Assembly: GCF_000970205.1 (NCBI RefSeq) | Contig: NZ_CP009512.1 | Span: 310,001-374,000 of the forward strand | Source of the DNA: Methanosarcina mazei S-6 | GTDB taxonomy: Archaea > Halobacteriota > Methanosarcinia > Methanosarcinales > Methanosarcinaceae | DNA length: 64,000 nt | Direction: 5' to 3' | Shown: piece after piece, positions 6,090 through 11,586 of the stretch | Layout: each line of letters begins with the position of its first letter | How positions within the stretch are numbered: position 1 is the stretch's first letter | The notes under the pieces: generated by a model | Database searches by the model: none | What the model was told of the DNA's origin: nothing | Seen by the model: only the letters and a program-made list of their open reading frames with translations | Translations under genes and position numbers: made by a program

Positions 6090-6851
6090 AGGAGGACTAT
6101 TGAGGAAAGAAAAAGCTGACTTGAACAGCAGTCAGACTCCCAATTTAAATTAATGGGCCAGGTGCCTGCATCTCCGGTCTTATGACCTGTCTGTTTCCTG
6201 TTAGATGACCAGTTAAATATTCAAGATGGGTGAAAGGGTTTTTAGGGGCTAATCCGGGCATTCGATAATTATATTTCTTAACTGACTTAATAATCTATAA
6301 TTCTATCGCTGGGATTTTATATTATGAGTTACATAGTATTAATTGGTTCATAAGGGAAGTACTGTAAAATGGAGCAAATTCAGGACAGCCTGAAAACTGA
6401 TCCCGAAATCTACTTCATTGACGCGCAGGATGTAAGATGAAGCAAATTCAGGACGGCTTGAAAACCGATCTTGCAATATACTTCATTGATGCGTAAGCTG
6501 TAAAATGAGGTAAATTCAGGACAGTCTGAAAGCTGATCCCGTAATCCACTTCATGGATGCAGAATCCCTTTGAACCACCAAACTGCTCTTTTTACAATAT
6601 TCATCCCCATAAACTGCTTTTTTCTGGTCCTTTACATCGCTTTTCCTGATTTTCTTTCGTCTTACTCTCTTATTGCTTTTCTTCCCCTCTGCTGGCCTGA
6701 TTTTCTTTTCTCTTACTCCCCTCTTGCTTCTCTTTTTACTGCTTTTCTTTCCTCCCGGCTGGCCCGATTTATTACTACATTTATCTAAACAATTTGATTG
6801 GGAGAGTTAACGTCTCCCAATTTTCCTGTTCAAAATTTTTGTTCTGTGGGT
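6090..6851. other. Intergenic region, repeats and pyrimidine-rich tract
   Basis: About 760 bases between the exporter and the corrinoid-domain gene. The first half carries the 68-bp tandem repeat listed separately. The second half (about 6590-6780) is strongly pyrimidine-rich on the plus strand, with two loosely repeated blocks starting near CTGATTTTCTTT. It has an open frame for about 70 hydrophobic residues there, but this looks like a base-composition artefact. Confidence 0.5.
6364..6563 (+). repeat. 68-bp tandem repeat, three copies, with tiny ORFs
   Basis: Three copies start at 6364, 6432 and 6500 with an exact 68-base period and about 80 percent identity by eye. Copy 1 contains ATG followed by 22 sense codons and a stop (MEQIQDSLKTD...). 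Copy 2 contains a related 19-codon frame (MKQIQDGLKTD...). In copy 3 the frame closes after two codons. No clear ribosome site is present. Because the period is not a multiple of three, each copy restarts rather than extends the frame. Confidence 0.75.
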
Positions 6852-7400
6852 TTATCCATGGCAGCTTCCGCAATTTGTATTTTCATCAGCCGAAATATGG
6901 GTTTTCTGGGTGCTGCTGTTCAGGAGAGCCGATTTTGCTTTTAAGACCGCGTCTTCCGAACCTGAAGCGTAGATGTCAGCTCCTATCCGGTCAGCCCATT
7001 CCTGAGTTATCAGCGATCCCCCCACACCTGTTACGACTTTATCCCGTATTCCGGCATTTTTAAGCTGCTCTTCAATCTGTATCTGCCGGATCATGGTTGT
7101 GCTCATGGATGCCGAACTGAATACAAAATCTGCTTCGTGTTCTTTGGCGGCTTCAGCAAATCTTTCAGATGAGACTCCCTCTCCAAGGTTAATTACTTCA
7201 AAGCCCTCTTTTTCAAAAGCGGCTTCAATACTGTCCTTACCGTAAGTGTGGGAATCCCCTTCAACAGTAGCGATTACGACAGTTCCCACATTACCTCTCT
7301 CCTTTCCGCCCGGATCTCCGGCCGACACAGGGAATATGAATTGAGCAGCAACTATCCCCAGAATTAACAGGACCAGTAAACTCAATTTTTTAACGCACAT
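6852..7400 (-). CDS. Exported corrinoid-domain-like protein with C-terminal CxxCH
   Basis: A 182-residue protein. The chosen ATG at 7400 has a GGAG eight bases upstream and gives a clear signal peptide (KKLSLLVLLILGIVAAQF, cleavage near VSAG). The rest matches the cobalamin-binding domain of methanogen corrinoid proteins: GTVVIATVEGDSHTYGKD holds the D-x-H-x-x-G motif whose His is the lower cobalt ligand. SASMSTTM, VTGVGGSLITQEWADRIGADIYAS and the final helix also align. The usual N-terminal helical cap is missing. The last residues are NCGSCHG, a CxxCH motif that could bind haem c or a metal. It follows the NosD-like gene by 62 bases on the same strand, probably in one operon. Export of a corrinoid domain is unusual; function unknown. 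Confidence 0.8.
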   Translation of the reverse strand: MCVKKLSLLVLLILGIVAAQFIFPVSAGDPGGKERGNVGTVVIATVEGDSHTYGKDSIEAAFEKEGFEVINLGEGVSSERFAEAAKEHEADFVFSSASMSTTMIRQIQIEEQLKNAGIRDKVVTGVGGSLITQEWADRIGADIYASGSEDAVLKAKSALLNSSTQKTHISADENTNCGSCHG

Positions 7401-7462
7401 ATTTTTCTCTCCTTTCTTTCTCCAGATTTTTGACTTCCTTCTGACTTTTTCTTTCTCCGGAA

Positions 7463-9385
7463 TTACCTGTTCCTCCTGCACCTTTTTCCGCTCACATTTT
7501 CAAAATCTTCTGCGGTTTTTCCGGATATAAGGGGAAGATAATCACAGTTTGCTTCCGTTACATTGTAAGGCAGATCTGAAATCATATCCCCGTCCCCGTC
7601 AGAAGCTGTTTCTGAGAAACCGTTCCCTTGCGGGGAAACCCATAAATTTCCGCCAAGGTAAGGCCCCCCTGCAATATTCACACCAGCGATTTTCGAAATA
7701 TTCCAGCTGTTTGTTCCGAAGTCTTCAGCGTTCCGGCTGTTATTCAGGTAATTGTTGTAGATTATATTGAAGTCTGAACCTGTCCCATCTGTCCAGTTCA
7801 GGTTAAGAGAGATGCCGATATTATTTCCCAGTATCCTGTTTCCTGATATTGTATTGTTGCCGCAGCCTTCGGTATATAATCCATAGGAGCTGGCTGTGAT
7901 GGTATTATTGTTCAGGGTATTTTCTTCACTTGACCCGTAGAGGTAGATCCCTTCATAAGCCTCTGAAAGTATATTTCCTTCAAGGGTGTTGTTGCAGCTT
8001 GTATCCCCAAGGTCTACACAGCACCAGCTGCTTGAGCTAACAGTGTTTTCTTTAAGGACATTGTCTGTGCTTGTATCACACAGCCAGATTCCCGCCATGT
8101 TATTTGAAGCACTGTTATCTTCTACAGGGCAGTTCCTGCAGCTGCTCAAAATGAAAGCGTTTCCTTCATTAGAATTTACATCATTTCCCCTTAGAGCTGT
8201 CATGGAACAGTTTCCAAGATATATTCCATGTTCACAGTTTGAGATGCTGCATCCTTCAAGCAGAGAATTTTGACTATTATAGAGGTAAACCCCAAAACTG
8301 CTGTTTTCAAGACCCAGGTCTTTGAGGGTGATGTTTTCACAATTTATGCAGTATACAACTCCTGCACTGGAATTGGAGTCAAGTGTAAGGTCTGAAACTC
8401 CTGACAAATAATATATCGATTTCCCGTCTACCTTATTGCTTGTGTCGATGCTGTTATTCATTTCACCTGTGTAATGATAGGTGTAAGCCCCGAAATTTCT
8501 GCTGTTGCGGGACATTTTATTTTTTTGGAGTATATTGAAGCTTGAGTCGAGATAAATTCCCCAGTGGTTTGAATTAGCTTTGTTTCCTCTCAGGATGCTT
8601 CCGTTCGAGTTCCCGAGGTATATCCCGTACATTTCGTTTGAGTTTGCGGTATTCTTTTCAAGCAGGCTTTCCCCTGAGCCGGTAAGATAAATTCCGTAAA
8701 AATTATTCAATGTTTTTGAGCCAGATATACGGCAGCCGGATGAATCTTCCAGGTAGATGCCAACCGCTCCTTCAGATGCACAATTATTTTGAAGGGTATT
8801 GTTTTCGGACGAATTAAGATAAAATCCGTAATGCCTGTTCGATTTTGCTTTATTGTCTTTTATCAGGTTCCGTTCCGAACTTTCAAGCCAGATCCCATTG
8901 TCACTGCTTTCCAGGCGGTTATTTTTCAGGATATTTCCGTGTGAATTATTCAGCGCGATACTTCTCCAGTTTCCTGAAAAATAGTTGTTAGTGATATTGC
9001 TTTCAGAAACGCCGTCAAGGTAAATTCCATATGTGGAATTTGCCCCTTTTATAGAGAACCCGCTGATTTTTACAGAATCAGAAACAATGTGGAACGCAGG
9101 GGCTTCCGGGTCCAGAGCAGTGATTACGGTTTTTTCAGGGTTACGATTCGTGGAGCTTATTTCCAGTGATTTATTTACGAGTACGTTTTCACTGTACTGC
9201 CCTTTCTCAACAAGGATAATATCCCCTTCGTAAGCCGCATCTATTGCCTCCTGCAGATTTTCGTATGATCCTGTTCCTCCTTCTTTTACATAAAGAGTAG
9301 CTGAGGATGCGGAGCCTGATATAAGGATAAGCAGTGTGAAAACAGCAATAAGTACAAATATTCTCTTCCTTTTCAACAGTATCAT
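7463..9385 (-). CDS. Exported NosD-type parallel beta-helix protein
   Basis: A 640-residue surface or secreted protein. It has an N-terminal signal segment (about residues 8-29, ending SGSASSA), then LYVKEGGTGSYENLQEAIDAA, the usual opening of NosD/pectate-lyase-like repeat proteins. About twenty PbH1-type turns of 22-24 residues follow, rich in N-x-S/T and G-I-Y-L patterns. The end has the NosD-type SDGDGDMISDLPYN segment. Such proteins in Methanosarcina are thought to be envelope or carbohydrate-interacting proteins. It is transcribed ahead of the corrinoid-domain gene. ATG 9385 sits directly after GGGAG; a TTG three codons later has better spacing. Confidence 0.8.
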   Translation of the reverse strand: MILLKRKRIFVLIAVFTLLILISGSASSATLYVKEGGTGSYENLQEAIDAAYEGDIILVEKGQYSENVLVNKSLEISSTNRNPEKTVITALDPEAPAFHIVSDSVKISGFSIKGANSTYGIYLDGVSESNITNNYFSGNWRSIALNNSHGNILKNNRLESSDNGIWLESSERNLIKDNKAKSNRHYGFYLNSSENNTLQNNCASEGAVGIYLEDSSGCRISGSKTLNNFYGIYLTGSGESLLEKNTANSNEMYGIYLGNSNGSILRGNKANSNHWGIYLDSSFNILQKNKMSRNSRNFGAYTYHYTGEMNNSIDTSNKVDGKSIYYLSGVSDLTLDSNSSAGVVYCINCENITLKDLGLENSSFGVYLYNSQNSLLEGCSISNCEHGIYLGNCSMTALRGNDVNSNEGNAFILSSCRNCPVEDNSASNNMAGIWLCDTSTDNVLKENTVSSSSWCCVDLGDTSCNNTLEGNILSEAYEGIYLYGSSEENTLNNNTITASSYGLYTEGCGNNTISGNRILGNNIGISLNLNWTDGTGSDFNIIYNNYLNNSRNAEDFGTNSWNISKIAGVNIAGGPYLGGNLWVSPQGNGFSETASDGDGDMISDLPYNVTEANCDYLPLISGKTAEDFENVSGKRCRRNR

Positions 9386-10014
9386 CTCCCTGTAAATGAA
9401 CCCCGGTTTATCTCTCTCATAAAGTCTGAATAATGAATGCTGGATGAGTTTTTTCCGGGCAATCCCTGAAACTTGGGCAAACTTTACAGGATAGATAAGA
9501 AGGTCTCTGCACGACCAGTATTCAGGCTTTCACAGGACATGGCCAGATTAAAAATCCACCCGAGGGTTAATTCAAAAATATCCTGTATTCAGCTAACCCG
9601 GAAACAATCCTTAAACGGAGTTCATAGCTGATTTAAAAAAAGAGTTTTAATTTTATTATTTAGACCTGGTTATCTGGATAACAACTGTTATCTTTTACTG
9701 CCTGCTGGTATACTGCTTACTTTTTACTGTTGTACTGCTCACTTTTTACTGGTATATTGTTTGCTTTTTACTGGTATACTGCTTACTTTTTACTGGTATA
9801 CTGCTTACTTTTTACTGGTATACTGCTTACTTTTTACTGGTATACTGCTTACTTTTTACTGGTATACTGCTTACTTTTTACTGGTATATTGTTCGCTTTT
9901 TACTGGTATATTGTTCGCTTTTTACTGGTATACTGTTCACTTTTATGCTCACCGGGCTCTATTCGGTTTAAGGGAGCTGGAAACCCGGTTAAAATTTCAG
10001 GTTCAGCAGGTAGT
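9386..10014. other. Intergenic region upstream of the NosD-like gene
   Basis: About 630 bases. The part near 9400-9690 is ordinary AT-rich spacer that should contain the promoter of the NosD-like/corrinoid operon. The part near 9691-9941 is the 22-bp tandem array. No gene is credible here: long plus-strand frames across the array are open in all three frames only because the 22-base unit lacks stops. Confidence 0.6.
9720..9941. repeat. 22-bp tandem array, about ten copies
   Basis: The unit CTTTTTACTGGTATACTGCT plus two bases repeats at exact 22-base steps from 9720 to 9918, with a degenerate copy before it. Inner copies are identical and outer copies differ by one to four bases (ACTGTTGTACTGCTC; TATATTGTTCG). 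There are no spacers, so it is not a CRISPR. It lies just beyond the end of the sensor gene. Confidence 0.9.
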
Positions 10015-11586
10015 TCAGGACAGGTCTGCCTGGATACATACCGGGGCTATATGGCTTACCACCTGGAGGGCAATGCTCTCAAGGAAGTTGCGGATATTCC
10101 ATGGAATCTTATCCAGAGTATGGGAAGCAAAGTTCAGGCTGCCTATGATTTCGTTGCTATATTTTAAAGGAATTACCGCAACTGCTTTTATCCCCTCTTT
10201 TCTTGCAGCTTCAGCCATTTTATCCGAGTAAAAATCCATTGAATAGATAGGTTTTTCAGCCCAGACCTGTTTTGCTTCATTTGAGTCTGCTTTAAACCTG
10301 GAAACTTTTTCTTTGAATTCTGGAGAGATGCCGCGGGATTGAACAAGGTTTATCTGGTCCAGGAGTTCATCCCTGATATATACGCCTCCGGCATCTATCC
10401 CGTTTATTTGCAGGCAGGCATCAAGTACCATATTAAGAATGGCATGGAGATTCCATGTCGTGTTAAGTTTTGCTCCAAGTTCCCTCTGTATTTCAAGCAT
10501 TTTCTGGGCTTCTTTTCTTTCGGTAATATCCACAACCAGGCCCTGAAGATGAGTTGCTCTGCCTTCTTCGTCCCTCTGGACAAAGACTCTTTCTTCTACC
10601 CAGAGCATTCTTCCCTCTCCTGTATAAATCCTGTATTCAATGCCGAAAGAACCCTGCCCCTCAGCGATGCTGCGTTTAAGGGTTTCATTAACCTTATTAA
10701 TGTCATCTTTATGTATTATATCCCCGTACAGCACCTTTCCTGATATGAAATCTTCTACCTTATACCCTAACTGGGTCACATTCTCTGAAACATATTCTGC
10801 AGGCAGGTTCTCTTTGTTCTCCCATAAAAAAGCTATAGCCTGGCTGTTGTTGATTATGGTTCTCAGCATGCTCTGCATTTCAATCGATTTACTGAGCGCT
10901 TCTTCTTTTTCTTTGTCTTCAGTTATATCAAGCACAAGCCCCTGAATGTGAGTTATCTCGCCTTCTCTGTTCCTCTGAATAAATGCCCTTTCATTAACCC
11001 AGCGCACGTCTCCGGCTTTTGTGAATATCCTGTATCCCGTATTGAAGTCAACTTCCCCTCTGCGTATTCGTGTTTTAAGTTCCTCTTTCACTCTGTTCCT
11101 GTCTTCAGGATGGATGATATCCCCGTAAAGGAAATTGCCGGAAATAAAGTCCTCAACTGTATATCCAAACTTAACAACATTTTCCGAAACGAATTCTGCA
11201 GGCCACTTTTCTTCATTTCTCCATAGAAAAACAACAGCAGGGCTGTTATTTACCACAGTCCGGATTGTTTCCTGCATCTTGAGGACAGAGAGCAAATCCA
11301 CAATTCCTATTGCTGCAACAACTTTTCCATCTTCGGAGAAAATAGGGGAAACGGCTACATTCCTGCCAAGGTACGTACCTCCCTTTGGGACTCCACGCAC
11401 AGTTTTACCGGTCCTGAGTACCTCTTCGAGTACAGGTCCCGTATAGTCTCTATCAATTATTTTTCCGTTTTCCAGGCGAAGCCCTTTCCGCTTTAAACTG
11501 CGGATAGTGGTCGGGAGCCCTACAAGAGAATGTACTGCTACGGCTATTGCTTCAAGCTCTTCTGGTCCTGCATCTTCGGATATCAA
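10015..11586 (-). CDS. DUF2111-PAS-PAS-GAF sensory protein
   Basis: A 523-residue soluble sensor. Residues 1-105 (SEDAGPEELEAIAVAVHS...GGTYLGRN...SEDGKVVAAIGIVD) match DUF2111, a domain found in methanogens. Two near-identical PAS/PAC units follow (about 108-230 and 235-362), each with NNS..FLW, ENV..GY.VEDFISG and a PAC end HIQGLVLDITE / HLQGLVVDITE. A GAF domain fills 375-515. There is no histidine kinase or DNA-binding domain, so it must signal by protein contact or small-molecule binding. The PAS pair arose by internal duplication. The start is unclear: TTG 11586 is the only plausible codon, with no close ribosome site, and the frame stays open upstream without an ATG. Confidence 0.8.
   Translation of the reverse strand: MISEDAGPEELEAIAVAVHSLVGLPTTIRSLKRKGLRLENGKIIDRDYTGPVLEEVLRTGKTVRGVPKGGTYLGRNVAVSPIFSEDGKVVAAIGIVDLLSVLKMQETIRTVVNNSPAVVFLWRNEEKWPAEFVSENVVKFGYTVEDFISGNFLYGDIIHPEDRNRVKEELKTRIRRGEVDFNTGYRIFTKAGDVRWVNERAFIQRNREGEITHIQGLVLDITEDKEKEEALSKSIEMQSMLRTIINNSQAIAFLWENKENLPAEYVSENVTQLGYKVEDFISGKVLYGDIIHKDDINKVNETLKRSIAEGQGSFGIEYRIYTGEGRMLWVEERVFVQRDEEGRATHLQGLVVDITERKEAQKMLEIQRELGAKLNTTWNLHAILNMVLDACLQINGIDAGGVYIRDELLDQINLVQSRGISPEFKEKVSRFKADSNEAKQVWAEKPIYSMDFYSDKMAEAARKEGIKAVAVIPLKYSNEIIGSLNFASHTLDKIPWNIRNFLESIALQVVSHIAPVCIQADLS

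Follow-up and report, generated by a model that had tools for sequence, protein, structure and literature searches.

Introduction

Corrinoid-binding Rossmann domains of the MttC-type family are known as parts of cytoplasmic enzymes, and the methanogens that use them have a high need for cobalt. MttC itself (PDB 7xcn; TIGR02370) is cytoplasmic, carries an N-terminal helical cap and has a Leu in its SxL motif. The corrinoid proteins named in the excerpted text of an M. mazei proteome paper are likewise cytoplasmic only, and no description of the exported corrinoid protein was found in the open-licence papers searched. Extracytoplasmic handling of tetrapyrroles is described from other organisms. 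Bacteroides has surface B12-binding proteins, BtuG (PMC6143338) and DUF4465 proteins (PMC13398666). In the hmu operon of Bacteroidota, genes for a hemophore, a receptor and HmuS are accompanied by those for a hypothetical protein and for MotA/ExbB and DUF2149 proteins (PMC10434189; PMC12583661). In the haem utilisation system hmuYRSTUV, HmuY is the hemophore and HmuS, known from Bacteroides, the haem de-chelatase, and the authors of the HmuS study describe the role of archaeal homologues as unclear (PMC12583661). Two CobN-like BtuS proteins of Methanosarcina barkeri change with the iron and sulphur source (PMC10846266). Finally, the monohaem cytochromes c of Methanosarcina, described by Kletzin et al. 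(2015, PMC4429474), are exported proteins with a single CxxCH in organisms that carry ccm genes; three monohaem candidates are listed there for M. mazei.

The gene analysed here lies in a window of 64,000 nucleotides of Methanosarcina mazei S-6 (NZ_CP009512.1, positions 310,001 to 374,000), to which all coordinates refer unless a locus is named. A preliminary description had proposed an extracytoplasmic cobamide-binding or redox protein, perhaps a corrinoid scavenger, or an electron carrier if haem c attaches at its C-terminal CxxCH. The signal peptide, DxHxxG motif, GG segment and C-terminal CGSCHG on which that proposal rested were all found as described; the departure at the SxL position, which reads SAS, and the restriction of the CxxCH to 4 of the 11 intact copies had gone unmentioned.

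Results

A predicted signal peptide precedes half of an MttC-type protein

The putative exported corrinoid-binding protein (182 amino acids; 6852..7400, minus strand) was delimited from its open reading frame, a PF02310 match, its orthologues and a comparison of start sites. Its ATG at 7400 follows a Shine–Dalgarno sequence, AGGAGAG (7407..7413, minus strand), and comparison of upstream sequences placed AGGAGA or a near form before the corresponding ATG in the orthologues, so that the alternative longer reading, a GTG-start ORF of 209 amino acids, is unneeded. The N-terminus, MCVKKLSLLVLLILGIVAAQFIFPVSA-GD, combines a basic start, a strongly hydrophobic core (Kyte–Doolittle maximum 2.53 in a 19-residue window) and an end at VSA-GD. 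From sequence and hydropathy it is predicted to be a typical Sec signal peptide, found in 11/11 copies and comprising residues 1–28 (7317..7400, minus strand) with cleavage probably after VSA. A lipoprotein was rejected: several orthologues have a Cys after the signal peptide, but its position is not fixed and it is absent from the window copy. Neither a cobalamin riboswitch nor any other Rfam element was detected, the window containing tRNAs only and four related loci nothing. Downstream of the cassette, at 6362–6560, a 68-bp unit is repeated in tandem (2.9 copies with 78% matches).

Residues 40–148 (6957..7283, minus strand) match the B12-binding domain PF02310 (7.5e-22; 77.9 bits against a gathering cut-off of 32.1). 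The closest solved structure is that of MttC (7xcn; 1e-36), with ~50–57% identity over 120–130 residues and an alignment confined to the C-terminal half of MttC. The corrinoid protein model TIGR02370 (MttC/MtbC) scored 115 bits, under its curated cut-off of 215.3, which bears out the earlier remark that this is not a standard family. Because the model matched from position 80 on, leaving positions 1–79 unmatched, the helical cap is absent, and the signal peptide stands in its place. By sequence, the domain is thus MttC, the trimethylamine corrinoid protein, reduced to its C-terminal half, with a predicted signal peptide replacing the cap. An AlphaFold model built from three sequences (pLDDT 56) was too poor for a fold search.

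The residues expected to surround the cobalt were compared in an alignment of 11 exported and 32 cytoplasmic domains. The lower cobalt-ligand motif DxHxxG is represented by D49-S-H51-T-Y-G54 (7239..7256, minus strand), whose Asp and His occur in 11/11 exported and 32/32 cytoplasmic sequences, and the GG motif by G127-G128 (7017..7022, minus strand). As in MttC, the DxH and GG motifs are accompanied by the Thr of the ligand triad; Asp49, His51, Thr102 and Gly127-Gly128 do not vary among the 11 exported copies, and we take them to be the equivalents of Asp757, His759, Ser810 and Gly833-834 of methionine synthase (the ligand triad and GG motif). In 17 alignment columns the exported clade is uniform and has a residue that none of the cytoplasmic domains shares. 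Three replacements common to 11/11 exported and found in 0/32 cytoplasmic sequences are Leu to Ser98 at the SxL position (S96-A-S98; 7107..7115, minus strand), Tyr or Phe for the Ile before Gly54, and Ser for the residue after GG; a Thr also takes the place of Ser or Asp within DxHxxG. The Ser of SxL has become Phe in five exported copies and the Gly of DxHxxG Val in two. The alignment thus indicates a retained cobalt ligand and a remodelled nucleotide side. This would fit either weaker binding or a change of ligand, to another cobamide or to an incomplete corrinoid, alternatives between which sequence does not decide.

The same substitutions raise the prospect that corrinoid binding is altered or lost. 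If lost, the protein would be a recycled Rossmann-type domain that the beta-helix protein encoded beside it would use as a module for structure or for binding, a reading that we hold to be unlikely but worth serious weighing. It accords with the 17 clade-exclusive columns, several of which belong to the pocket for the nucleotide (SxL to SxS, GGA to GGS), with the aromatic residue before Gly54 and with the missing cap, but it leaves the unvarying Asp, His, triad Thr and both glycines unaccounted for, and the low dN/dS and the abundance of cobalt and tetrapyrrole genes in the neighbourhood, both reported below, also weigh against it.

Occurrence and evolution in Methanosarcina

Genome searches recovered an intact gene in 11 of 31 Methanosarcina genomes, that of the window included, and a decayed copy in one more. 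The other 10 intact orthologues share 64–75% overall identity with the window copy, and both the signal peptide and DSH are kept throughout (11/11), so that neither of the losses named in the preliminary description as counting against it, that of the motif His or of the signal peptide, was encountered. The extracytoplasmic location and cobamide-binding fold then proposed are upheld at the level of prediction, with an origin from a methylamine corrinoid protein now added. Among 112 Methanosarcinaceae genomes no orthologue was found outside Methanosarcina, and the weakest exported copy (328 bits) is well separated from the best cytoplasmic relative (165 bits). A scan for close relatives across 84,980 genomes yielded only two loci, both in Methanosarcina, and one response regulator, a spurious match.

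In a tree of the 11 exported copies and the 32 cytoplasmic corrinoid domains, the exported copies form a single clade (100/100 support) on a long stem nested among MttC sequences, and the exported form appears to have a single origin, within Methanosarcina, in the half of MttC that binds cobalamin. Median pairwise dN/dS was 0.12 for the domain, 0.27 for the signal peptide and 0.52 for the tail; the exported clade is under purifying selection. A chance ORF is excluded by the orthologues, with their conserved signal peptide and DSH, and by the dN/dS of the domain. N-glycosylation sequons occur in all copies, mostly outside the domain (the G001 linker alone has six NxS), and agree with the predicted extracytoplasmic location. 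The decayed copy is that of G007, in which the ATG and the core of the domain are gone and CGGCHG is retained at the end.

Genes adjoining the corrinoid gene

Directly upstream, 62 bases away on the same strand and probably in the same operon, lies the gene for a secreted NosD-like right-handed beta-helix protein of 640 amino acids (7463..9385, minus strand). The two genes are adjacent in every intact locus, full-length beta-helix orthologues (at least 74% identity) occur in exactly the same 11 genomes as the exported corrinoid domain, and both genes are broken in G007 (L055 4960–6140). The pair is therefore passed on and lost as a unit, which can happen with adjacent genes. It encodes no transporter. 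A 22-bp tandem repeat (10.9 copies; 9705–9944) just upstream of the beta-helix gene overlaps probably spurious ORFs at 9730–10231, and a DUF2111-PAS-PAS-GAF sensor protein (10015–11586) adjoins the cassette in the genomes whose copies bear CxxCH.

In seven genomes (G002, G003, G004, G005, G006, G012 and G028) the pair adjoins a CobN-like gene, intact or truncated, directly upstream or downstream. The encoded CobN-like proteins have a predicted signal peptide wherever the start could be read, and a membrane anchor and basic tail where they could be read to the end. In G006 the pair has a CobN-like gene on either side; two further such genes follow downstream, and DUF2162, MotA/ExbB and DUF2149 genes lie upstream. 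A truncated CobN-like copy (~167 matching residues) lies upstream of the pair in G003 and G004, an ORF in G028 shares their start, and G002 combines a truncated copy with another CobN-like gene downstream. The truncated exported CobN-like genes, in three genomes (L052 8158–8811, L053 2230–2805 and L089 7575–8231), all match the first 167 residues only and could be either a remnant that has been conserved or the gene of a short protein. The exported CobN-like proteins score slightly higher with HmuS than with CobN (507 against 482 bits; 452 against 434 bits). For the cytoplasmic CobN of the same genome the order is reversed by a wide margin, with 575 bits for CobN against 348 for HmuS. The gene cbiM is on the same stretch as the pair in five genomes (G002, G003, G004, G005 and G028), that of G005 also containing cbiN, cbiQ and cbiO-type genes. 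Since cobalt transport genes are nearby, corrinoid or cobalt, rather than haem, is suggested as what is handled. The idea of a scavenger, raised in the preliminary description, gains in this way from the HmuS/CobN-like exported chelatase genes and cobalt transport genes next to the gene in seven related genomes.

This linkage is not general. No CobN-like gene is near the pair in G001, G009, G010 or the window's genome, and other Methanosarcina have large CobN-like genes and lack the exported corrinoid protein. Within the window's genome, ~650 kb of the circle separate the cassette and the exported CobN-like genes. That genome encodes two exported, anchored CobN/HmuS-like proteins (L085 6448–18993; C1 near 3.80 Mb). 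An ExbB-like ORF and a DUF2149 gene are close to them, so that this archaeon has an hmu-like module.

The C-terminal CxxCH motif

The window copy ends in C177-G-S-C-H181 (6858..6872, minus strand) followed by G182; the motif is a candidate haem c site identified from comparison of the tails and of Ccm genes. CxxCH is found in 4/11 intact copies (CGSCHG in G000 and G001, CGSCHR in G009, CGNCHR in G010) and in the decayed G007 copy. The tails of G002–G006 and G028 read CKSYQR, CKSLNV, CKNP or CKKP or have no Cys, and the G012 protein stops before the tail. CcmE and CcmC/F-type proteins are encoded in 5/5 genomes with CxxCH, one of them with the decayed copy, and in 0/7 genomes without it. Within the CxxCH clade the Cys and His codons vary silently only, with no replacement. 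Because the motif tracks Ccm and its codons change silently, the candidate haem c site is supported as real. The four intact CxxCH copies form one clade (95/90), so that the pattern represents one gain (or a few losses) and not repeated evidence; the value of p = 1/792 obtained by ignoring phylogeny is accordingly no valid probability. Of the features that mark a c-type cytochrome, a CxxCH in a predicted exported protein and a genome with Ccm were found, and conservation among homologues was not. The earlier suggestion of haem c gains indirect support, for one clade, from the exact match with CcmE and CcmC/F, as a single evolutionary contrast: attachment of haem c to the tail is plausible in the window's protein and is no trait of the family. 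As most orthologues lack CxxCH, haem would be an addition and not the core.

The tail also invites a reading in which the protein is a corrinoid and haem c redox protein that passes electrons between tail haem and cobalt, as a carrier or a corrinoid reductase on a surface cytochrome chain. The confinement of CxxCH to the Ccm-positive copies and its unreplaced codons speak for this possibility, which we nonetheless regard as improbable: in seven genomes selection maintains the protein although it has no CxxCH, so that haem is unneeded for its core function, a single haem site sits at the very last residues with no second axial ligand identified, and the contrast is one event.

Discussion

The locus presents a known corrinoid fold that, on its sequence, is newly exported and has a new partner and a new gene context. 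A domain of B12-binding type with a signal peptide, its pairing with a beta-helix protein and the HmuS-like neighbours in related species suggest capture of corrinoid or cobalt outside the cell. The explanation that we favour, at about even confidence, is an exported, MttC-derived corrinoid capture or carrier protein that acts with the beta-helix protein and feeds cobalt or corrinoid acquisition. In that scheme the signal peptide in place of the helical cap would take the domain beyond the membrane, where it would bind a corrinoid with His51 as lower cobalt ligand in a pocket altered on the nucleotide side, and the co-encoded beta-helix protein would assist in capture or carrying. HmuS-like chelatases anchored at the surface would probably receive the corrinoid and may strip it of its cobalt, and acquisition of cobalt or of corrinoid would be supplied in this way. 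Where c-type cytochromes are made, as in the species of the window, the C-terminal CxxCH probably receives haem c as well, which could shift the redox state of the cobalt or tie the protein to a surface cytochrome chain. A fuller version, a complete surface salvage route with a corrinophore, the beta-helix protein, cobalt stripping by HmuS-like proteins and uptake by CbiMNQO, and with corrinoid and covalent haem c together on the protein in cytochrome c-making species, is put forward as a doubtful extension. That the protein still transfers methyl groups, now outside the cell, is very improbable and is set aside: its nearest relatives do so, but it has no cap domain, no corrinoid methyltransferase gene was noticed in the neighbourhoods, and we know of no coenzyme M methyltransferase outside the membrane.

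Capture by an exported corrinoid protein would set this locus beside several described systems, from each of which it differs. In comparison with MttC, the exported protein has a signal peptide, lacks the cap, and has an altered pocket and a Cys-bearing tail. With hmuYRSTUV of Bacteroidota (PMC12583661) it shares a predicted extracytoplasmic tetrapyrrole-binding protein, which in seven related genomes has HmuS-like chelatase genes close by and in G006 also MotA/ExbB-like and DUF2149 genes. Its binding fold, however, is the B12-binding Rossmann fold, unrelated to HmuY (a domain search gave no match of the exported protein to the HmuY family), Methanosarcina has no outer membrane or TonB receptor, and the genes are unlinked in the window's genome. 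BtuG and the DUF4465 proteins, compared by description only, do the job proposed here but belong to other families and organisms. Unlike the monohaem cytochromes c of Methanosarcina, the protein carries its CxxCH on a corrinoid fold, at the very end of the chain, and most of its orthologues lack the motif.

The match between CxxCH and Ccm makes a direct genetic test possible in Methanosarcina acetivorans, for which ccm deletion mutants exist (PMC9084895). The neighbourhoods described here offer a lead on the role of the many archaeal HmuS/CobN homologues that has been stated to be unclear (PMC12583661), and a predicted exported version of an MttC-type domain, maintained under selection, points to extracytoplasmic corrinoid handling in methanogens.
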